Positions 1,593-23,120 of a stretch of DNA of 64,000 nucleotides are shown here, in pieces. Source of the stretch: an uncultured Eubacteriales bacterium (GTDB lineage Bacteria; Bacillota; Clostridia; Peptostreptococcales; Anaerovoracaceae). The notes under the pieces are model-generated. The model worked only from the letters and a program-made list of their open reading frames with translations, did not search any database and was not told the DNA's origin. The DNA lies in NCBI GenBank assembly GCA_902786855.1, contig CADAEH010000010.1, forward strand, positions 1 to 64,000. Reading direction: 5' to 3'. Both the position numbers and the translations under genes were made by a program. Numbering within the stretch: the first letter of the stretch is position 1; every line of letters starts with the position of its first letter.

Positions 1593-2945
1593 ATGAGCAA
1601 AATCGAAAAGAAAAAATACTCATCACTGAGGAATGACTCGAAACGCATTCTCGCCCAAGGTGAGTACGTCTCGAACGATACATTCGAGACAGGGAATAAC
1701 AACAACGATCTCATCATCGGACCGACGGGAGCGGGCAAGACCCGCTATTACGTCAAGCCTAATCTGCTCAGTGCCAGCGAGAGCCTCGTTGTCACCGACA
1801 CCAAGGGTAACCTCTGTAAAGAGCTGGGGCCGGTCCTGAGAGATGCAGGATATGAGATCCTTCATCTCGATCTGGCCGATCCCAGGAATTCCATCGGATA
1901 CAATCCATTCGACTACATCCCTTACGATGAAGCCACAGATAAATACGACGAGAAAGAGATAATGGCATTCTCCAACATACTGTACGGGGAGAAGGGTCAC
2001 AGCAAAGATCCATACTGGGATGAAGCAGGCAGAGCATTGCTCACAAGCATCGTTTCCTATGTGATGGAAAAGCTGCCAAAAGAAGACCATAACATCTACA
2101 GCGTCAGAAAACTCTTCGCGCTGATACATGCCAACGGAAAGCAAGGAGACAAATCTCCATACTACAACCTGATGAAAGCTCTCCGGGAAACGGATCCCGA
2201 CAGCTTCGCCGCTGAACAGTATGACTATGTCATCACTGAAAGCGTTGAGACTACATCGAACTGCATCCGCATGATGACAGGAAACAGACTGTCACTCCTG
2301 AGAGCGAAGGAGATCGATGAGCTGCTGCGTCGTGAGGACCGCATTGACATACTGCAGCTTGCACAGAAGAAGACAGCTCTTTTTGTGACCATCAGCGACA
2401 TGGACCGCTCACAGGATATGCTTGCCAATCTGTTCTATAAACAGGCTATGCAGACCTTGTGCCGCTACGCGGACGGGGTCTGTGAAGACAGTTGCCTGCC
2501 AGTGCCGGTCAGGTTCATCCTGGATGACTTCGCGACAAATGCATGCATCCCGGATTTTGACAACATGATCTCAGTCATCAGGTCAAGAGGCATCTCTGTC
2601 AGCATAATACTCCAGAGCCTGACGCAGCTGGAAAAGATGTACGGAAAGGCCGCTGCGACAACGATCCTGAACGGATGCGACACAGTCCTGTACCTGGGAG
2701 GTCAGGACCTGAGCACAGCCCATTATATTGGGACCAGAGTCAACCACTCTGATTTCAGCGTGCTGACCTTGCCGCTCTCTCAGGCATGGCTGCTGCAGCG
2801 CGGACAGAAGCCGAGACTGGTCAGACGCTACGAACTGACAGACCACCCGAGATATGGTCTCCTGCCGGAGGCGGGAGCAGCAAAGGCGAAATCAGCAAAG
2901 ACGGCAAGAGAAGGAGGTGACTGCTATGAGAACGAAGTCTGCTGA
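1593..2945 (+). CDS. VirD4/TraG-like type IV coupling ATPase, no membrane anchor
   Basis: 450-residue P-loop ATPase of the VirD4/TraG family, which links a relaxase-DNA complex to a type IV secretion channel. Walker A is GPTGAGKT (residues 43-50); the Walker B region is VRFILDDFATNACIPDFDNM; the following ISVSIILQSLTQLEKMYG is the usual TraG segment with its Gln, and DTVLYLGGQD is also family-typical. The ATG at 1593 is chosen because AAGGAGG (1580-1586) precedes it; an in-frame TTG at 1566 falls inside a small perfect hairpin (GCAAGC/GCTTGC, 1554-1569). Most members carry two N-terminal membrane helices; none is present here, so the product is likely soluble or truncated. No relaxase or other secretion gene is nearby. 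Confidence 0.85.
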   Translation: MSKIEKKKYSSLRNDSKRILAQGEYVSNDTFETGNNNNDLIIGPTGAGKTRYYVKPNLLSASESLVVTDTKGNLCKELGPVLRDAGYEILHLDLADPRNSIGYNPFDYIPYDEATDKYDEKEIMAFSNILYGEKGHSKDPYWDEAGRALLTSIVSYVMEKLPKEDHNIYSVRKLFALIHANGKQGDKSPYYNLMKALRETDPDSFAAEQYDYVITESVETTSNCIRMMTGNRLSLLRAKEIDELLRREDRIDILQLAQKKTALFVTISDMDRSQDMLANLFYKQAMQTLCRYADGVCEDSCLPVPVRFILDDFATNACIPDFDNMISVIRSRGISVSIILQSLTQLEKMYGKAAATTILNGCDTVLYLGGQDLSTAHYIGTRVNHSDFSVLTLPLSQAWLLQRGQKPRLVRRYELTDHPRYGLLPEAGAAKAKSAKTAREGGDCYENEVC

Positions 2946-3990
2946 TGTAACAAAGGGCCGCGTCCCTCTCGAGACGCTGCTGAAATACGCTGAAGACATG
3001 GCGAAATACAATGCCGAGAGCGGTAAGACGATGAAGGATCTCAAAAGTGGCCTGGGTATACGGGAGTGTTCCGTGAATCGATTCTACAGCGGTTTCCTTA
3101 GACTGCATTCCTCGGATAAGGATGAGGCTTGCAGGAAGCAGAGATGGGTCGCCGACTGCATCGAAGTCATGCTGGGTGAAACAGATACCGGATCTCTGAC
3201 GATGGGAGAGCTTGCAGACAAGATAGCCATCGCGCTCAATACACCGAAGCTCAGCAGTGAAGACCGCTGGGCGCTGTATGAGCTCTGCTTCATGCTCACG
3301 GCGCAGATGCGTATAGGACTGGATGACAGCTTCAGGATAATAGAGCAGACAACCCGCCTCGGGACACCGGATGAGAAAGAACCGTGGTCACTTTACAACA
3401 GAGTGATCGCTCTGCGCCACAGCGGCAGGACAGACCTGGTAAAGAAGCCGGAGATTGATCTTGGATCAGGAACAAGGGTCAGTCTGAAACAGATCCTCGG
3501 GAGCGTAGAGGTGAAAGACAACTGTCTCACAGAGAAGGAGATACTGTCACTTCCATTCCTGAAAGCAGAGCAATTTGTACGTTCCTGCCAGCTGGCGAAG
3601 CATCACAGTGGTCTCTCGCCGGATGGACAGTCACTGGAGCTCTATCTGGCACAGAGCCGTTTCGAAGAGATGGTCAGACAGTACAACGGGAACGATTGGA
3701 ATAAGAAGAACACGATCTCAGAATTTGCTGAAAGTCTCACAAGCCAGTTCAGAGAGAGGACAGAGATGTGGGGACTCAGCCGGAATGAGGTCATTCAGGC
3801 ATATGAACTCTGCTATGAGTTCATCACACTGATGGCTGACGAAGCAAGCTGCGAAGGTCACGAATCACTGATGATGATCGAAGGGCTTGACAGTTGCTGC
3901 GACGTGGATGCGAAAGTGAGAGCAGGCAGAAGTACCCGATCAAGACAGCGAAGAAGCCTGCAAGGTGAAGGAACGCCATCAGAACAGTAA
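2926..3990 (+). CDS. Hypothetical protein, 354 aa, translationally coupled to the VirD4-like gene
   Basis: I do not recognise this protein. It overlaps the end of the coupling-ATPase gene by 20 bases and has a perfect AAGGAGGTGA (2911-2920) six bases before its ATG, so it is co-expressed with it. The sequence is largely helical, without signal peptide or membrane helix, and contains four Cys in the last third plus a basic tail (RAGRSTRSRQRR). An N-terminal stretch (TMKDLKSGLGIRECSVNRFYSGFLRL) could be a helix-turn-helix. The downstream neighbour is a ClpP-like protease 39 bases on. A role as an accessory or adaptor of that patch is a guess. Confidence 0.7.
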   Translation: MRTKSADVTKGRVPLETLLKYAEDMAKYNAESGKTMKDLKSGLGIRECSVNRFYSGFLRLHSSDKDEACRKQRWVADCIEVMLGETDTGSLTMGELADKIAIALNTPKLSSEDRWALYELCFMLTAQMRIGLDDSFRIIEQTTRLGTPDEKEPWSLYNRVIALRHSGRTDLVKKPEIDLGSGTRVSLKQILGSVEVKDNCLTEKEILSLPFLKAEQFVRSCQLAKHHSGLSPDGQSLELYLAQSRFEEMVRQYNGNDWNKKNTISEFAESLTSQFRERTEMWGLSRNEVIQAYELCYEFITLMADEASCEGHESLMMIEGLDSCCDVDAKVRAGRSTRSRQRRSLQGEGTPSEQ

Positions 3991-15889: not shown

Positions 15890-16435
15890 ATGGAAAGAAA
15901 TCTTATGATCGCCGGTTTTGGCGGACAGGGAGTTATGACAATGGGTAAGCTCCTTGCTGAAGCTACATCACAGGCTACAGACCTGAATGTAACATTTTTC
16001 CCTTCATACGGCGCTGCCATGAGAGGCGGCACAGCTAACTGCTATGTAGTTATTTCTGACGAGGAGATCGGAGCTCCTGTCAGCTACAGCCTTGAAGACC
16101 TCGTAGTCATGAACGGGCCGTCGCTGCACAAGTTCATCGACAACCTCAAGCCTGGCGGGACACTTTTCGTCAACAGCACGATCGTTACAGACCCGATCGA
16201 GAGAGATGACATCAAGGTCATCAAAGCTCCTGTCACTCAGATGGCTATCGATATCAAGAACGAGAGAGCTCTCAATGTCATCATGCTGGGTGTATATGTG
16301 GGCGCAACAGATGCTGTTCCTGAAGAAGTAATCGTAAAGGGCATTGAGCACAAGTTTGCCAAGAAGCCAAAACTGATCGAGCCTAACGTTGAAGCATTCA
16401 AGATGGGGCTTGAGATCGGCAGAAAGCAGAAGTAA
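15890..16435 (+). CDS. 2-oxoacid:ferredoxin oxidoreductase, gamma subunit
   Basis: 181 residues; starts MERNLMIAGFGGQGVMTMGK, the glycine-rich signature of the gamma domain (KorC/VorC/PorC), followed by FFPSYGAAMRGGTANCYVVI. This subunit completes the catalytic core and contacts CoA. AGGAGG is 6 bases before the ATG. Last gene of the operon, followed by a strong terminator. Confidence 0.93.
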   Translation: MERNLMIAGFGGQGVMTMGKLLAEATSQATDLNVTFFPSYGAAMRGGTANCYVVISDEEIGAPVSYSLEDLVVMNGPSLHKFIDNLKPGGTLFVNSTIVTDPIERDDIKVIKAPVTQMAIDIKNERALNVIMLGVYVGATDAVPEEVIVKGIEHKFAKKPKLIEPNVEAFKMGLEIGRKQK

Positions 16436-16459
16436 GCTGAAGATCTTACAGTAAAAACA

Positions 16460-16512
16460 GTGACCGGATACTGACGCATATAATATTATGTGCCGGCGCC
16501 GGTCACTTTTTT
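16460..16512 (+). terminator. Terminator of the 2-oxoacid:ferredoxin oxidoreductase operon
   Basis: GTGACCGG (16460-16467) pairs with CCGGTCAC (16499-16506), then TTTTTT. The loop is long (31 bases) and has an inner GCCGGC. Confidence 0.85.
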
Positions 16513-16597
16513 GCGCTCAGAAAGGAATCTTTTAATAACAGAGAAGTGCAGACATCTTAATGACTAATTAATTAACCAATATTGCCGTGTGCGTAAA

Positions 16598-16626
16598 TTG
16601 ACTACATTTTTAGCTTGTTTTACAAT
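16598..16626 (+). promoter_or_regulatory. Promoter of the kinase/LRR locus
   Basis: TTGACT (16598-16603), a 17-base spacer and TACAAT (16621-16626). A GAGT/ACTC hairpin with a long T run (16627-16655) lies just downstream and could attenuate. Confidence 0.65.
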
Positions 16627-16725
16627 GAGTACAAGAAATAACTCGTGTTTTTTTTGATAGTTGCTGATTCGTGTGGCTATAAAATCTAAATATGTCAAAC
16701 AAAATGGCAGTTTAGAAGGAGCCGA

Positions 16726-17799
16726 ATGAGCATGATAAGCAGGGTGAAAAAGATGGTGGACGGCCGCAAACTCAAACAATGGCAGAAAGAACTCAAGCAG
16801 CTATCAGAAGAGACGGGGATTTCTTTCGAAGATGTATGCAGATATCTGGATGTTTCATATGCACGCGATGTGGGATTCTATGTCAAGCTTCCGATGAAGA
16901 GAAGGACGATCATAGGCATCGGGATGGCATATAAGCGCCCGCTTGAGACAATCAACAGGTGGATCACTTATTATGGCATGAAACGCAGGCTATACAGCAA
17001 AGATGTCAGTGAAGATATGATCTGGATCTATCTGATCAGGCGCAATTTTAATGATCCGGAGACAGATACCAATTATTTTGCCTTATACGATGAATGCCAG
17101 CAGGCTGCTTTTGAGACCTATGTCACGCTGTGGAATGAGATCACATCAGGCAGCCTGAATACGGATGATGTAGACCGAAGACTGGAAGAGATCACTGTAA
17201 GTCCGGAAGCGGGCAATATCAAAGATTTTGTCGTTAATAATCTTGATTCCTTCAAAACAGCATATGCCAAGCCGCGCAAATACCTTGCTCAGTATCTTGA
17301 CTGTATTCGCAGTACCAATGTCGTTGCAGGAAACAAGGGCAGAAGTGACTCTCTTATCTCACTCAGAGGGTGGCTCGATGATTCCATGATCAATTACCTC
17401 AGCGGTTCGCCTGAGACCATTCATGTTACTGATCGCGTGACCAGAAAAAGAACAGCTGATATGAAGAAAATCCCTAAGAGCAGGAAGTCCCATATTGCAA
17501 CAGCTCTTGCTCTGGGTATGACACGCGGTGAGATAGATCATTATCTTGAACTGATGGGATATCTGCCGCTTAATGAGGATGATCCGGAAGAAGAAATACT
17601 GATCAAGGCACTGAATAAATGGGACGAAGAGCATCCACTGCAAAGGCTGTTCAAGGAGAAATATATAAACGGTGATGACAGCATACAGATGGAAGAAGAG
17701 GAAGAGCATCAGGCAGTAAGCGATATGCTGATGCTAAGACAGGAACTCAGAGATCAATATAAGAGAAGAAAGCTGAAGTTCGATTATATGAAGTTATGA
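16726..17799 (+). CDS. Unknown cytosolic helical protein with an internal duplication, partner of a Ser/Thr kinase
   Basis: 357 residues, no signal peptide or membrane helix; not recognised with certainty. Residues 25-55 (LSEETGISFEDVCRYLDVSY) look like an XRE-type HTH. Two segments resemble each other: 57-104 (KRRTIIGIGMAYKRPLETIN...) and about 249-297 (RKSHIATALALGMTRGEIDH...), each a run of short helices with a Gly turn and then an acidic step and an aliphatic helix. Acidic and basic tails close the protein. AAGGAG (16716-16721) precedes the start; the ATG at 16732 is an alternative. Its stop is only 30 bases before a secreted LRR protein, and a receptor kinase follows, so it may be the intracellular regulator or substrate of that kinase. 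Confidence 0.75.
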   Translation: MSMISRVKKMVDGRKLKQWQKELKQLSEETGISFEDVCRYLDVSYARDVGFYVKLPMKRRTIIGIGMAYKRPLETINRWITYYGMKRRLYSKDVSEDMIWIYLIRRNFNDPETDTNYFALYDECQQAAFETYVTLWNEITSGSLNTDDVDRRLEEITVSPEAGNIKDFVVNNLDSFKTAYAKPRKYLAQYLDCIRSTNVVAGNKGRSDSLISLRGWLDDSMINYLSGSPETIHVTDRVTRKRTADMKKIPKSRKSHIATALALGMTRGEIDHYLELMGYLPLNEDDPEEEILIKALNKWDEEHPLQRLFKEKYINGDDSIQMEEEEEHQAVSDMLMLRQELRDQYKRRKLKFDYMKL

Positions 17800-17828
17800 T
17801 CCAGAATGATCAAGTGGGAGAAATCAAT

Positions 17829-19706
17829 ATGGCGTTTATGGCGGAGACTATGAAAAGAGTGATGAAAGCGTGTCTGCTGCTGGCAGTTACAATGATTTTG
17901 CTTTTTGCTTTTCATCTGAATGCATTTGCAGATTCCTATACATTCACAGACAGCAATGGAATATCCTGGTCATACACGACAGGAAATTATGAAGGATCCT
18001 CCTGTGCTGTGATAAATGGCTGCGGAGAGATACCGGAATCCGGCGAGATCACTGTACCGGGATATATCAATGGATTGCCGGTCATCATCGGGGATAATGC
18101 GTTTAAGGGGAATCTCGGCTTCAAAAGCGCAACCCTGTCTGAAGGAATCATTGGTATTGGATCTTCATTTAACGGCTGTGCCAATCTGCAATCGGTAGAA
18201 ATGCCGTCTACGCTTGTCTATGTAGGCGAGGTTGCATTTAATAATTGCCGCAACCTTACCGATGTGAGGCTGAACGAGGGCCTGAGAATGATTCGCGGCT
18301 ACGCTTTCAGTAAGTGCAGCTCACTGGCATCAATAAATATTCCATCAACCGTTGAGGCCATTTACACTATGGCTTTCGATCAGTGTTCGTCGCTTGATTC
18401 TATTAATGTAGATGATTCCAATAACGCATATAAGGATATTGACGGGGTGCTGATCAGCAGGAATATAGATGCGGCAGTTGGGGATAAATTGTTTTATTAT
18501 CCTCTTGGAAAAACAGATGAATCATATACGATCCCTGATGGAGTCAAGGTTATAGGTAATATGGCGTTCTATAGATCACAGCTAAAGGAAGTTACGATAC
18601 CTGCTTCTGTCAGAGAGCTGGAAAACAACGCTTTTCAAAAAGCCGAGAACCTGCAGAATGTAAACATAGCAGAGGGCGGAATGAAAACATTGGGCAGCAA
18701 TGCTTTTTCTTACTGTTCTTCTCTGCAGTCCATAGATATCCCGCAGACTGTTAATTACATAGGGAGTGATTGCTTTTCCTATTGTTCTTCTCTGAGAAGC
18801 GTAACACTTCCGGATGGACTTACTGATATCAAATCAGGTACTTTCAGGAACACGATCATAGACCAGTCTTTTGTGATTCCGGCAAGTGTAAAGAACATAG
18901 AATGGCAGGCCTTTAACCACTGCACGAATCTGCAGCATTTGATCATCCCTGAAAATGTAGAAAGGATCAATGAAGAGGCATTTAAAGAATGCATGAGTCT
19001 TAAGGACGTATATATTGCTAATGAAAACATAATAATAGATAACAATGCGTTCCTGACATGCGGACCTTTTGACCCTGATCAGGGAAAACGTTTATTTACG
19101 ATCACCGGCGATCCGGAATCGGCAGCAGCTGAATATGCCGGGACTGCTGGCATCGATTATGCACCGACTACAGCGGCTGAATACATGGAAGCAATGGCTG
19201 CGGACGGCCCGCTGCCGGCGTATGATTTCGGTAACAATCAGACAGGGGATGATCCGGGAACCGGGGGAAACAATACTTCCGGATCCGGCAGCAATGGGAC
19301 CGGAACAGAAAACGGCCAGAACGGAACAAGTGGAAATAGTACTTTCCCTGCAGTAAATAAAACTAACATGACCGGGACTGCTACAGTAGCTCCGTCACAG
19401 AAGATCGTTAATACAAATGAGCTGAAGAGACCGAAATTCAAAGCTAAGAGCAAAAAAGGCAAAAAGGTCAAACTGTCATGGAGCAAAGTAAGTAATGCTG
19501 ACGGATATCTCATATATGTAAAGGGACCAAAGGACAAGAAATTTAAATGCAGAGTTACCAAGAGCGCCAGGGTCAAGTCTATAACACATAAAGGTCTGAA
19601 AAAAGGCAAGAAGTATAAATACAAGATAGCTGCTTACAAGGTAGTTAATGGAGTGATGCAGAGAGGTCCTTTCTCTAAGACCATAACAGTTAAAATAAAG
19701 AAGTAG
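17829..19706 (+). CDS. Secreted BspA-type leucine-rich-repeat protein with C-terminal fibronectin-like domain
   Basis: About 625 residues. A signal peptide ends at LNAFADS. Residues ~50-440 are BspA-type (LRR_5) repeats of about 23 residues, with the typical LNEGLRMIRGYAFSKCSSL, IPASVRELENNAFQKAENL and VNYIGSDCFSYCSSLRSV. A Gly/Asn/Ser/Thr linker follows (~480-525), then a basic fibronectin III-like domain (VKLSWSKVSNADGYLIYVKG, YKYKIAAYKV). The start is put at 17829 because GGGAGA stands 8 bases upstream and it begins the signal peptide; the ATG at 17796 overlaps the previous stop but has no good site. Such proteins bind host or bacterial surfaces. It sits between the unknown regulator and the receptor kinase. 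No sortase signal is seen. Confidence 0.88.
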   Translation: MAFMAETMKRVMKACLLLAVTMILLFAFHLNAFADSYTFTDSNGISWSYTTGNYEGSSCAVINGCGEIPESGEITVPGYINGLPVIIGDNAFKGNLGFKSATLSEGIIGIGSSFNGCANLQSVEMPSTLVYVGEVAFNNCRNLTDVRLNEGLRMIRGYAFSKCSSLASINIPSTVEAIYTMAFDQCSSLDSINVDDSNNAYKDIDGVLISRNIDAAVGDKLFYYPLGKTDESYTIPDGVKVIGNMAFYRSQLKEVTIPASVRELENNAFQKAENLQNVNIAEGGMKTLGSNAFSYCSSLQSIDIPQTVNYIGSDCFSYCSSLRSVTLPDGLTDIKSGTFRNTIIDQSFVIPASVKNIEWQAFNHCTNLQHLIIPENVERINEEAFKECMSLKDVYIANENIIIDNNAFLTCGPFDPDQGKRLFTITGDPESAAAEYAGTAGIDYAPTTAAEYMEAMAADGPLPAYDFGNNQTGDDPGTGGNNTSGSGSNGTGTENGQNGTSGNSTFPAVNKTNMTGTATVAPSQKIVNTNELKRPKFKAKSKKGKKVKLSWSKVSNADGYLIYVKGPKDKKFKCRVTKSARVKSITHKGLKKGKKYKYKIAAYKVVNGVMQRGPFSKTITVKIKK

Positions 19707-19731
19707 CAGACAACCGGCAGAGCAGGTCAAC

Positions 19732-21504
19732 ATGAGTGAAGCAAATCGTTACAGCAGATACGAACCGCTTTTCGGATCGTGGTATATAAAGAAAAAAATC
19801 GGCCAGGGTGCAATTGGTCAGGTGTTTGAGATAGAAAGAACAGATCTCGGCACAACATACAAGGCTGCACTCAAGGCGATCACTATACCTGAAGGACCGG
19901 AAGACATAAAGCGAGTCCTGTCAAGCGGTGTAGCTCGGGAAGATCTTGCAGACTATTATCGCAATCTGATCCGCAACATAGCGAGTGAATTCCAGTATCT
20001 TGCCAAGCTCAAGGGCAATAGTTACATCGTTAATTATGAAGACCATCAGATAATAGAAAATGAAGATGAGCTGAACTGGGATGTTCTGATCAAGACAGAA
20101 TTGCTGACACCGCTTGTAGAGCATGTTATTGAACACCCGCTGACAGAAAAAGATGTTCTGCAGCTTGGTATAGACATGTGCCGTGCTTTGCAGTTCTGCG
20201 GACAGTACAACATCCTGCACAGAGACATAAAACCGGAAAATATTTTTATAGCGCCGAGCGGAGATTACAAGCTGGGGGATTTTGGCATAGCGCGTATGGT
20301 TGAGGATACTTACATCAACCTGTCACGCAAAGGTACTTATACATACATGGCTCCTGAAGTGTTCCATGGCCAGAAGTACGATCAGTCAGCAGATCTGTAT
20401 TCGCTCGGTCTTGTTATGTATAAATACCTCAATCACGGCCGCATCCCTTTCATGCCATCATATCCTGAAAAGATAGCTTTTGATGATTCTGAAAAGGCTT
20501 TCTCCGAGAGGATGTCAGGAAAATCGCTTCCGCCGCCGGCACAGGGGTCAGCGAAGCTCCGAAAAATCATCCAGAAAGCCTGTGCATATAACCCATCTGA
20601 CCGCTATCAGTCAGCAGATGAAATGCTGACTGACCTTGAGAAGCTGCGCCTTCGCAGTAGAAAGAAACCTTTTGACGCAAAAGTGACGGAAAGGTCGCAA
20701 AATAAAACCATAAATAACGGGCAAGAAGAGGTTGCTTCACTTGGTACAGCTCAAACCGTTTCTTCAGATACAAAAGGGACTGAAAGTATAAAAGGTGCAG
20801 CAGAAAATGCTCCTGCACCACGGTCTAAAAGCATAGCTAAGGCTGTTGCAGCAGTTCTCATGCTTCTACTTATACTGGGAGCCTGTGCTTATGCTGCAAT
20901 ACCTAAGGCGGTAACAGATATAACAGGGATAGATCCTGCCGTAAGTCTGTATTATGACGGAGAACTAAGACCGGAATACAAAATAGAACCTGACTGGTTC
21001 AAAGACGAGACGATCCATTTTGCCTCCGGAGACGATTCTGTATTCACTGTAACTGAACAAGGAGAGATAAAGGCGGTCTCTATAGGCGAGGCTGATCTTA
21101 CAATTAAAGCAAAAGAATACACTGAAACCGTACATGTCAGTGTAGTGCCTAAAGTAACAGCGATCACAGGACTTGAAAAAACTTATGATCTGTATACCGG
21201 TAATACAGCACAGCTGACACCTGTACTGGAACCGGAAGAGTTCTCACAAGAACCGGTTACTTATACCTCATCGGATGCAGATGTTGCGACCGTCGATGAA
21301 AATGGCCTTGTAACTGCGGTCAGCACAGGAACAGCGAACATAACTATCACATCCGGGGGAACAAGCACCGAAACAGCGATAGAAGTATCGGCACCTGTGG
21401 TCTATAAACCGAAATCATCAGGCAGTTCATCCAAATCCGGCAAGTCATCAGGCAAGAAGAAAAAGAGCAAAAAGGAAAGTTTCGGAGACGAAGAATACTT
21501 TTGA
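19732..21504 (+). CDS. Transmembrane Ser/Thr protein kinase with two Ig-like (Big_2) ectodomains
   Basis: 590 residues. A complete Hanks-type kinase domain spans ~15-310: Gly loop GQGAIGQV (24-31), Lys48 in AALKAI, HRDIKPEN (163-170), DFG (183-185) and APE (207-209), so it should be active. After a ~55-residue linker, a single membrane helix (~369-390, VAAVLMLLLILGACAYAA) leads to two extracellular bacterial Ig-like repeats (~393-475 and 476-555; second one with SSDADVATVDENGLVTAVST) and a Ser/Lys-rich tail. Typical PknB kinases carry PASTA domains; this one does not, so its ligand is unlikely to be bare muropeptide. It ends the three-gene run with the unknown regulator and the LRR protein. 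No phosphatase is adjacent. Confidence 0.92.
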   Translation: MSEANRYSRYEPLFGSWYIKKKIGQGAIGQVFEIERTDLGTTYKAALKAITIPEGPEDIKRVLSSGVAREDLADYYRNLIRNIASEFQYLAKLKGNSYIVNYEDHQIIENEDELNWDVLIKTELLTPLVEHVIEHPLTEKDVLQLGIDMCRALQFCGQYNILHRDIKPENIFIAPSGDYKLGDFGIARMVEDTYINLSRKGTYTYMAPEVFHGQKYDQSADLYSLGLVMYKYLNHGRIPFMPSYPEKIAFDDSEKAFSERMSGKSLPPPAQGSAKLRKIIQKACAYNPSDRYQSADEMLTDLEKLRLRSRKKPFDAKVTERSQNKTINNGQEEVASLGTAQTVSSDTKGTESIKGAAENAPAPRSKSIAKAVAAVLMLLLILGACAYAAIPKAVTDITGIDPAVSLYYDGELRPEYKIEPDWFKDETIHFASGDDSVFTVTEQGEIKAVSIGEADLTIKAKEYTETVHVSVVPKVTAITGLEKTYDLYTGNTAQLTPVLEPEEFSQEPVTYTSSDADVATVDENGLVTAVSTGTANITITSGGTSTETAIEVSAPVVYKPKSSGSSSKSGKSSGKKKKSKKESFGDEEYF

Positions 21505-21586
21505 TACTTTGAATCTTTGTCGAACGGAGGAGAACAGAAAACCAAAGCAACAGAAATACCAGCCGATCAATAACTGCAATATCGCA

Positions 21587-21620
21587 TGGCAGAGGGATTT
21601 TGGACCTCTGCCATTATTTT
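21587..21620 (+). terminator. Terminator after the receptor kinase gene
   Basis: TGGCAGAGG (21587-21595) pairs with CCTCTGCCA (21605-21613), followed by TTATTTTTG. Confidence 0.85.
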
Positions 21621-21752
21621 TGACATTCTTTTTTCCTGGGGAAATATACTTTTAGAGTCGGGGAACAGTAGGAAGTCCTTACGAAAAACGGGATGAAAAT
21701 AAGAATCAAGTCAGATAAAGACATTAAAAACCAAAACAGGAGTGATAGTGGA

Positions 21753-23120
21753 ATGAATAAGCAGACGAAGATCGGAAATGGCATCAGGAGTATAGCCGGC
21801 AGTGTGTTAGCAATAATGATGTTAAGTATGCTTCTTATGGATTCTGTATCATTAAATGCATTTGCGGATGGTACAGATAATACTCCGTTTGAAGTTACAC
21901 AAAGCGTATACGAGAGGATATATAAGAATGATCCGAATTACGTGGTAGTCGGGACAGTGCCATACTATCAGTATGCAACCAGAACAAAAGCTACCAAGAC
22001 TGACGGGCATGATACTCTGAGCGGATGGACAAAATATGATACTAAAACCAGTTCATCCACATCGGGGTATAAATTCGGCACCCCTGTAAGCACAAGCACA
22101 TCTTATGCAAATGGCAGAAAAACCGTGACCACTGCGGTTAATAAAGGTTATTACTACTACGCTTACGCAGTAGCAAATCCAAACAAAACCAGTGACTGGA
22201 CTTACTATGTAGATAAGACAAGAGCAGCTGTTATCAATCATATGAAAGCCAGCTTTTCATCATCTGCCACCTGGGATGAAGCACGGTTAAGGTATTTCTG
22301 GTACATCAGCTCAAAGGATCTGGGGTCATTGTCGGGTAAGTTCAATAAGTCGATCCCGTATTGTGCAGATTCAACAGTCAGCAAAGGTGTAACAACAAAA
22401 TCCGGTGACCACTTATACGATCTTAAATTATGGAAATACAAACAGTGTTATAAGGTCAAAACCGATATTACCATCAACTATTACTATCAATGGTCAGCCT
22501 GGTCGGCATGGTCAGCATGGTCGCAGGTCAGGAAAACCCTTCCGAGTGATGGTTCAATGAAAGAAAACAGTGAGACAAGGTACCTGATCAGATTGTCGGA
22601 CAGTGCCGCAAGTTGTGTACATCAATGGAACAGCACTTATACTGCAGACGTTCCTTCAACGATCAATCATACGGGAATTGAAAGCATCCACTGTAAAAAA
22701 TGCGGTGCGGTCAAGCCTGGGACAGCGCGAGAGACACCTGTGATCGTACTCAACTCCGGCTCCGGCTCCTGGATCGATCTTGCTGTAGACACGTATTATG
22801 AAGTAAGATCAACAGCTATACCTGTGGTCAGGATCACCAAGATAAAGGCCAAGAAGGGCAGCATGGTTGCAAAGTGGAAGAAATCAAGCAAAAAGCAGCA
22901 GGCGAAATTCAGCGGATATCAGATCCAGTACAGCACCAAAAGAAACTTTACCGGTAAGACAATAACAAAAGGAACGGCGAAAACGGGTTCTAAGCAAGTA
23001 GTGATAAGAAGACTGAAAAGGAAAACCACTTACTATGTCCGCATGAGAAGGTTCAGGAAAGAAGGAGATAACGTGATATTCTCCAACTGGTCAAAGGTCA
23101 GGAAGGTCAAGATCAAATAA
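21753..23120 (+). CDS. Secreted protein with WSAW repeats and C-terminal fibronectin-like domain, unknown function
   Basis: About 455 residues. The chosen ATG has AGGAGTGA 7 bases upstream; an earlier ATG at 21693 adds 20 charged residues before the signal peptide and has a poor site. The signal peptide ends at SVSLNAFADG, nearly the same cleavage region as the LRR protein upstream. The mature part is rich in Tyr, Ser and Thr; residues ~245-265 hold a YYYQWSAWSAWSAWSQV repeat, and a CVHQW...HCKKCGAVKPG motif (two CxxC-like elements, zinc-ribbon-like) follows. The last ~95 residues are a basic fibronectin-like domain ending FSNWSKVRKVKIK, like the LRR protein's tail. Probably a surface or wall-bound protein of the same locus. 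I know no family name for it. Confidence 0.78.
   Translation: MNKQTKIGNGIRSIAGSVLAIMMLSMLLMDSVSLNAFADGTDNTPFEVTQSVYERIYKNDPNYVVVGTVPYYQYATRTKATKTDGHDTLSGWTKYDTKTSSSTSGYKFGTPVSTSTSYANGRKTVTTAVNKGYYYYAYAVANPNKTSDWTYYVDKTRAAVINHMKASFSSSATWDEARLRYFWYISSKDLGSLSGKFNKSIPYCADSTVSKGVTTKSGDHLYDLKLWKYKQCYKVKTDITINYYYQWSAWSAWSAWSQVRKTLPSDGSMKENSETRYLIRLSDSAASCVHQWNSTYTADVPSTINHTGIESIHCKKCGAVKPGTARETPVIVLNSGSGSWIDLAVDTYYEVRSTAIPVVRITKIKAKKGSMVAKWKKSSKKQQAKFSGYQIQYSTKRNFTGKTITKGTAKTGSKQVVIRRLKRKTTYYVRMRRFRKEGDNVIFSNWSKVRKVKIK

Follow-up and report, generated by a model that had tools for sequence, protein, structure and literature searches.

A three-gene unit for a putative receptor kinase and its partners

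The first 64,000 nucleotides of contig CADAEH010000010.1 (forward strand; GenBank assembly GCA_902786855.1, an uncultured Eubacteriales bacterium of the family Anaerovoracaceae), hereafter the window, carry a unit of three plus-strand genes (Table 1) that encode a protein devoid of predicted transmembrane (TM) segments (gene 1, product P0001), a predicted exported leucine-rich repeat (LRR) protein (gene 2, P0002) and a transmembrane Ser/Thr kinase (gene 3, P0003). Because the three families usually occur together in relatives, they probably serve one outside-to-inside signaling pathway. The genome itself comprises 2.9 Mb in 62 contigs; its nine named relatives are all metagenome-assembled genomes (Mogibacterium, Eubacterium, uncultured Clostridiales and uncultured Firmicutes), 5 of which are labeled as goat or cattle gut.

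By reading, the first ATG of the gene 2 frame, at 17796, lacks a Shine-Dalgarno-like sequence, and 17829 is preceded by one (GGGAG). With the start taken at 17829, the two intergenic gaps measure 29 and 25 nt, in line with the terminator-free spacing of 24-30 bases given in a preliminary description of the locus, and a hairpin followed by a T-run was not found in either gap by eye. A terminator scan of 16000-22500 restricted to loops of 3-8 returned 4 sites on both strands, compared with 5.1 in shuffled sequence, and a single plus-strand site inside the unit (18213-18230 within gene 2, with a 7-pair stem); the hairpins that border the unit on its left and right are not in its list.

Table 1. 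Positions of the genes, domains and regulatory features of the unit
Feature	Position	Strand	Remarks
Left-border hairpin, terminator of the oxidoreductase operon upstream	16459..16507	+	-24.8 kcal/mol, z -5.2; T-run 16507-16512
Sigma-70-like promoter named in the preliminary description	16598..16626	+	10/12 matches; possible, not shown conserved
Element TTTnTTGA-N22-TAnnnT before gene 1, promoter-like	16650..16685	+	conserved upstream of gene 1 in relatives
Gene 1 (P0001)	16726..17799	+	cytosolic, 357 aa, two XRE-like helix-turn-helix (HTH) units
HTH unit 1 of gene 1	16765..17055	+	residues ~14-110
HTH unit 2 of gene 1	17458..17625	+	residues ~245-300; hhalign
Gene 2 (P0002)	17829..19706	+	predicted exported BspA-type LRR protein; frame open from 17796
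C-terminal basic FN3 domain, cassette subfamily	19419..19703	+	VKS[VI]THKGL motif
Gene 3 (P0003)	19732..21504	+	transmembrane Ser/Thr kinase, 590 aa, two Big_2 domains outside
Kinase catalytic domain	19786..20625	+	PF00069 match; motifs
Extracellular Big_2 pair	20899..21390	+	two beta domains, predicted local distance difference test (pLDDT) mostly >90
Extracellular C-terminal kinase tail	21466..21501	+	consensus GYFDSxDDEYF; here ESFGDEEYF
Terminator hairpin after the kinase (right border)	21586..21614	+	-17.6 kcal/mol, z -4.9; with T-run

Conservation, co-occurrence and co-divergence of the gene set

Searches with P0001 returned 14 loci in 9 of 48 genomes of the genus, and scores above 250 bits in 14 of 297 genomes of the family; 7 of these 14 belong to other genera and contribute a single such locus apiece. 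All 21 of these close loci were examined. A kinase with a window-type Big_2 ectodomain adjoins gene 1 in 20 of them; the exception, L066 (genome G160), sits on a contig that ends before any kinase, and at the start of another G160 contig a window-type kinase comes after an FN3 tail. An exported gene with an FN3 tail likewise adjoins gene 1 in 20/21 loci: in 17 it separates gene 1 from the kinase, in L066 it immediately follows gene 1, and in L031 and L032 it is upstream of gene 1; the locus without an exported gene in the operon is L070 (genome G289). Two exported genes are present in L040, and several genomes hold paralogous cassettes: 2 in G000, 4 in G008 and 2 in G013. The second cassette of the window's own genome, on contig C11, has a gene 1 matching at 44% and an exported protein without an LRR match. 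The neighborhood on which the preliminary description had staked its view of the three genes as one system is thus conserved. That three unrelated genes merely share a promoter by chance is practically negligible as an explanation, given the 20/21 loci, the five genera in the 297-genome sample and the paralogous cassettes within G000, G008 and G013. Three further matches were dropped: L011, a weak own-genome match to gene 1 whose gene was read as a relaxase, the similar match at L043 1-1019, and L078 (G115), which has no gene 1 open reading frame (ORF).

Profiles of the kinase ectodomain (A5) and of the cassette FN3 domain (A6), both built from these operons, reach at least 178 and at least 101 bits, respectively, in 14/297 genomes each, with the next matches at 127 and 76 bits (at most 10 candidates per genome scored for A5, at most 17 for A6). 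The genomes with gene 1 above 250 bits, with A5 and with A6 are the identical 14, from five genera. Gene 1 and the kinase also diverge in concert. Their pairwise distances correlate with r 0.86 over 20 loci, the highest value in 5000 permutations being 0.49, and 12/20 loci have the same nearest neighbor by both; over 18 loci, the correlation is 0.88 between gene 1 and the kinase domain (permutation maximum 0.51), 0.54 between gene 1 and FN3 (0.39) and 0.43 between the kinase domain and FN3 (0.39).

A receptor-shaped kinase with a conserved extracellular tail

P0003 matches Pkinase (E 9e-38) and Big_2 (E 8e-15) in Pfam, contains the full set of Hanks catalytic motifs (GxGxxG, HRDIKPEN, DFG and APE) and has one predicted TM segment at ~372. 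PASTA domains were not detected at E 1, and the NCBIfam model PknB_PASTA_kin scores 146 bits versus a cut-off of 450. The preliminary portrayal of gene 3 as a catalytically complete kinase carrying Big_2 outside in place of PASTA, and so shaped as a receptor, therefore holds. The operon kinases form no supported single clade, which still leaves room for one origin.

In the structural model of the ectodomain (pLDDT 85), two confident beta domains are followed by a last stretch of 28 residues below 50. The tail at its very end, preceded by a variable linker rich in Ser, Lys and Gly, is conserved: D586 and F590 are invariant in 19/19 aligned kinases (the cut L067 was omitted). Because this extracellular tail is conserved yet disordered in the model, it suggests a docking motif, and the best candidate partner of so acidic a tail would be the co-occurring basic FN3 domain. 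An intramolecular dock was considered as well and was not seen, the tail being disordered in the model. In the own genome, the pattern D-[DE]-E-[YH]-F-stop is found in the window kinase only; kinase 2 ends in DDESF and escapes it.

Could the kinase instead be the core of an anti-phage or other conflict module? Its catalytic domain matches the PADLOC models mad6, PD-T4-6 and Stk2, and the patchy distribution of the cassette would be in keeping with such a role. These matches, however, sit in the shared kinase domain (PADLOC gives no cut-off), antiphage_MADS6 scores only 115 bits against a curated cut-off of 460, neither gene 1 nor gene 2 has a PADLOC match at E 0.01, and an exported LRR protein does not fit; we consider this explanation very improbable.

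A predicted exported protein with a variable half and a constant FN3 domain

P0002 matches LRR_5 at E 2e-87 and fn3 at E 5e-5, the latter slightly under the curated cut-off; its N-terminus has a hydrophobic segment near residue 26 in a Kyte-Doolittle scan and, by eye, an AFA-DS site. The LRR protein had been proposed as a possible ligand-binding or adhesion part, which needs rewording: LRR matches (phmmer) occur in 12/20 linked exported proteins, that of L069 being unconfirmed by Pfam, so that the LRR was rejected as the defining ligand part. Whereas the N-terminal halves vary, being built of LRRs or rich in Big_2, the C-terminal FN3 subfamily is constant, and the last 100 residues, the FN3 end, carry a net charge of +23 to +33 in 20/21 exported proteins.

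The same features could mean that the exported protein is the output of the system, that is, an adhesin or a receptor for food or host surfaces that is bound to the wall; the kinase and gene 1 would control how it is expressed or deployed, and its FN3 domain would serve wall retention. BspA-type LRRs are adhesin-like, and their presence in gene 2, the variability of the N-terminal halves and the occurrence of FN3-like domains, many of them basic, at 15 places in the own genome would all suit such a surface protein. The cassette FN3s nevertheless form a separate subfamily, scoring 121-150 bits on their own profile as against 19.5-55.8 bits for 12/13 other own-genome FN3-like loci examined, and this subfamily is confined to the same 14/297 genomes as the kinase ectodomain, whereas a wall anchor would not require so narrow a distribution. 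This alternative is unlikely, though serious enough to be kept in sight.

Two more exported proteins belong to this context. At L195 7825-9384 (contig C11, ~37.8-39.4 kb), ~13.5 kb from the second own-genome cassette, lies an exported protein outside any cassette, an orphan that combines Big_2 with an FN3 domain of the cassette subfamily (133.6 bits) and is possibly an extra ligand. Right after the window cassette, past its terminator, P0004 (21693-23120) is predicted to be another exported protein with an FN3-like C-terminus; phmmer relatives of it occur near some other cassettes (L031, L034, L041, L042 and L070).

A tandem HTH protein from a family that recurs beside kinases

Gene 1 had been described as cytosolic, with an HTH-like start and a duplicated unit. 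The duplication is real and consists of two HTH-like units: with hhalign, unit 2 scores 96% to a family of single-unit relatives (over 48 columns) and 89% to unit 1, compared with 2% for a spacer control. The units are homologous to XRE proteins by profile and weakly by fold, which makes gene 1 a putative DNA-binding protein. The fold link is to be read with caution, since unrelated chains appear at the same Z in the same list; Foldseek against the PDB gave nothing below E 0.001, and no PDB sequence matched the profile A1 (25 gene 1 members; L069 and L040 omitted) up to E 1. FHA or SARP domains were found neither in P0001 nor in the families given for these 25 members. The best candidates for phosphorylated residues are Thr146, which is Thr in 19/19 aligned close relatives, and Ser220, kept in 18/19.

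Beyond the cassettes, gene 1 is related, by profile comparison, to a Clostridia-wide and often kinase-linked family (counts cover the loci that the searches returned, some of them ended by contig edges). Two-unit relatives, whether distant, cut or broken, have a kinase within 4 kb in 8/9 loci, L071 being the exception. The kinases at the distant loci L074 and L077 carry Lectin_C by Pfam, and those at L075 and L076, also distant, appear similar to them; L072 has a PP2C gene followed by a WG-repeat kinase, and L073 and L079 have other kinases, the neighbors of L079 (genome G311) being a 328-aa protein without a Pfam match over the cut-off and a 436-aa kinase. At L197, the HTH gene has a PP2C gene next to it, and genes for vWA, PP2C and kinase proteins come further along, the kinase 3.7 kb away, a set that we take to recall the TerY-P triad. 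Among single-unit relatives (ORFs of 141-173 aa), a kinase is found within ~1.5 kb in 12/22 loci, 17 of which, 11 with a kinase, make up the profile A2, and in 7/9 further loci (L141-L150 minus L144, which repeats L113). The rough chance rate of a nearby kinase is ~2% (11 kinases in 2.9 Mb), and weaker or larger HTH relatives (L151-L167), taken as a control, gave 0/17 at the same distance. In these control loci, the HTH unit is mostly at the C-terminus of larger proteins, of which L153, L154, L155 and L157 presumably begin with macro-like domains. In many Clostridia, ~150-aa XRE-like proteins (L138-L150 and L098-L136) have a Ser/Thr kinase nearby more often than not, frequently in divergent orientation. 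Of the earlier proposal that the first protein is the phosphorylated effector, an effector role in the cytosol is thus likely, for a family repeatedly found near kinases.

Such an effector need not bind DNA. Gene 1 might be an adaptor or inhibitor of the kinase, its HTH-like units having turned into protein-binding modules; the frequent partnership of its family with kinases, its co-divergence with the kinase domain, a first HTH that looks degenerate by reading and the absence of a Pfam HTH match in P0001 would agree with this. Against it stand the relation to DNA-binding XRE proteins, seen in profiles and weakly in the fold, and the DNA element common to the upstream regions of gene 1 copies, and we hold it to be rather unlikely.

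A shared element upstream of gene 1

The preliminary description placed the promoter at 16598-16626. This is the best match of a sigma-70 scan that returned 12 sites as against 13.7 in shuffled sequence and is probably not the main promoter; what is conserved is the element at 16650-16685. Among 20 gene 1 upstream regions (L069 was omitted from the 21), TTTT-N-TTGA occurs in 15, while any such word reached at most 6 in six Markov resamples by a gapped-word count. The full element, with a -10-like hexamer 21-23 nt on, is found in 14/20, versus a mean of 0.07 and a maximum of 1 in 500 Markov resamples, a comparison that flatters the element because the motif was picked on these same sequences. 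A stricter form (gap 22, TA[AT]nnT) has 2 matches in the 332 kb of own-genome sequence examined, both strands counted, one being 16650-16685; it misses the element of the second cassette (TAGACT). Promoters usually have a spacing of 17; because that between TTGAnn and TATAAT is ~20 here, the element may be a promoter that needs an activator.

The other match of the stricter form lies at L195 3688 on the minus strand, ahead of a gene for a zinc-ribbon-like protein (2726-3601). Shortly upstream of gene 1, 4/15 loci examined (L037, L040, L043 and L044) have strong terminator-like leader hairpins (-14 to -19 kcal/mol) that are accompanied by T-runs, an arrangement like that of transcription attenuation; in the window, only a weak hairpin (-4.1) follows the promoter at 16598-16626.

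A three-part receptor-kinase cassette?

How might the three products work together? In the reading best supported here, the exported protein would be an extracellular sensor or ligand carrier, in which the variable LRR or Big_2-rich N-terminal half would sense the signal and the constant basic FN3 domain would dock on the kinase ectodomain, probably via its acidic-aromatic tail. Docking would alter the activity of the membrane kinase, which would phosphorylate gene 1 inside the cell, and gene 1 would then alter transcription, plausibly including that of its own operon via 16650-16685. We give this cassette model, built on sequence comparisons, a probability of about one half, and parts of it are shared by the output and adaptor alternatives. 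It retains from the preliminary interpretation the conserved unit, the receptor-shaped kinase and the likely cytosolic effector, and parts with it over the LRR as the defining component and over the named promoter.

Several observations weigh against the model. Since A5 and A6 derive from these operons, their presence in the 14 genomes is partly so by construction, and the telling evidence is that the other 283 genomes fall below these scores, together with G289, where the exported gene is encoded elsewhere in the genome, with LRR, Big_2 and FN3. Gene 1 is not always accompanied by this kinase, as two genomes without an ectodomain or FN3 match above the score gaps of A5 and A6 illustrate. In G311 (L079), a gene 1 copy truncated where its contig ends (42% identity, 156 bits over 207 residues) adjoins a kinase without a predicted TM segment or Big_2, so that the HTH family is paired there with another kinase design; the whole copy might exceed 250 bits, and counting G311 as a holder turns the match into 14/15. 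In G169 (L071), a short broken copy (130 and 101 bits) has no kinase in 14 kb. Shared descent, too, raises distance correlations of the kind reported above, and the one between ectodomain and FN3 (0.46 over 18 loci, permutation maximum 0.48) is not above chance. The FN3 end of L069 has a charge of only +8, and with FN3-like domains as widespread in this genome as noted above, FN3 may do no more than keep proteins in the wall. P0001 lacks any significant Pfam or NCBIfam match, and its first HTH, as said, looks degenerate. The promoter element is missing ahead of unlinked and orphan FN3 genes, and a regulon connected through it was rejected. Finally, a phosphatase gene is not part of the unit, PP2C being absent from the four proteins of 16726-23120.

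What would be the significance of placing all these parts in one operon? The common view of bacterial Ser/Thr kinases is that of pleiotropic enzymes that sense wall fragments through PASTA and act on many scattered substrates. Here, one operon would supply a kinase together with a single candidate for its ligand or co-receptor and a single candidate transcription factor as its target, so that three proteins and a single promoter would suffice for testing the whole path from the outside to gene expression. Cassettes duplicated with new sensor halves would then provide a plug-in set of surface sensors, comparable to some degree with the receptor kinases of plants and animals and their co-receptors. 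As HTH relatives adjoin kinases in other Clostridia, a result obtained here would also help to annotate many kinase-HTH pairs.

Comparison with known systems

Among the matches listed in open-access PubMed Central, judged by title and the start of the abstract, no description was found of a kinase combined with both a dedicated exported FN3 protein and a tandem-HTH protein; the phosphorylation of transcription factors by kinases is known, as are PASTA kinase-phosphatase pairs, and the three-part set was found undescribed there. Tentatively, then, the cassette may represent a receptor-kinase architecture new to searchable papers, in which an exported co-receptor family with a swappable sensor half and an FN3 domain binding a free kinase tail would be combined with a tandem-HTH factor as the direct substrate.

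The closest parallel for gene 3 is offered by the PASTA kinases (PrkC, PknB, Stk1), which have the same order of a cytosolic Hanks kinase, one TM segment and extracellular beta domains. P0003 differs in bearing Big_2 and an acidic-aromatic tail instead of PASTA and in having an exported partner; moreover, PASTA kinases are usually paired with phosphatases (PMC6213207), unlike the cassette, which has no PP2C gene. For the proposed link between gene 3 and gene 1, the PknH-EmbR pair of Mycobacterium tuberculosis provides a precedent of a transcription factor that is a Ser/Thr kinase substrate (PMC4601284). EmbR, however, is a SARP/FHA protein, and gene 1 matches neither. We know of no exported partner in the PknH-EmbR system.

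With the XRE (Cro/C1) regulators DdrOC, C.AhdI and PrgX, gene 1 has the HTH unit in common, a link that profiles make by way of the single-unit family and the fold makes weakly; unlike them, it has two units joined by a helical spacer, and it lacks the peptide-binding TPR domain that PrgX possesses. The Lectin_C loci L074 and L077 resemble the cassette in having a distant gene 1 homologue beside a transmembrane kinase and differ in that the kinase gene comes first, the ectodomain is Lectin_C and the place of the FN3 protein is taken by a DUF2334 gene (L074) or a polysaccharide-deacetylase gene (L077). BspA-type surface proteins have LRR_5 repeats as gene 2 does, which is in contrast fused to the cassette FN3 subfamily and encoded together with a kinase. 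In overall logic, the cassette would come near to the three-component histidine-kinase systems, in which an external binding protein, a membrane kinase and a cytosolic DNA-binding output are combined as is predicted here, with the difference that the cassette relies on Ser/Thr kinase chemistry and has no receiver domain.

Elsewhere in the own genome there is, by reading, an ordinary PrkC/PrpC-like pair. A further, large cluster on contig C1 (L012-L014, ~228-288 kb) encodes a PASTA kinase, an FHA-FtsK/SpoIIIE (EssC-like) protein and a series of kinase domains that closely resemble one another but differ in their ectodomains (Lectin_C in three cases, YARHG in one and unassigned in one); it also holds genes that read as FHA- and PP2C-like.

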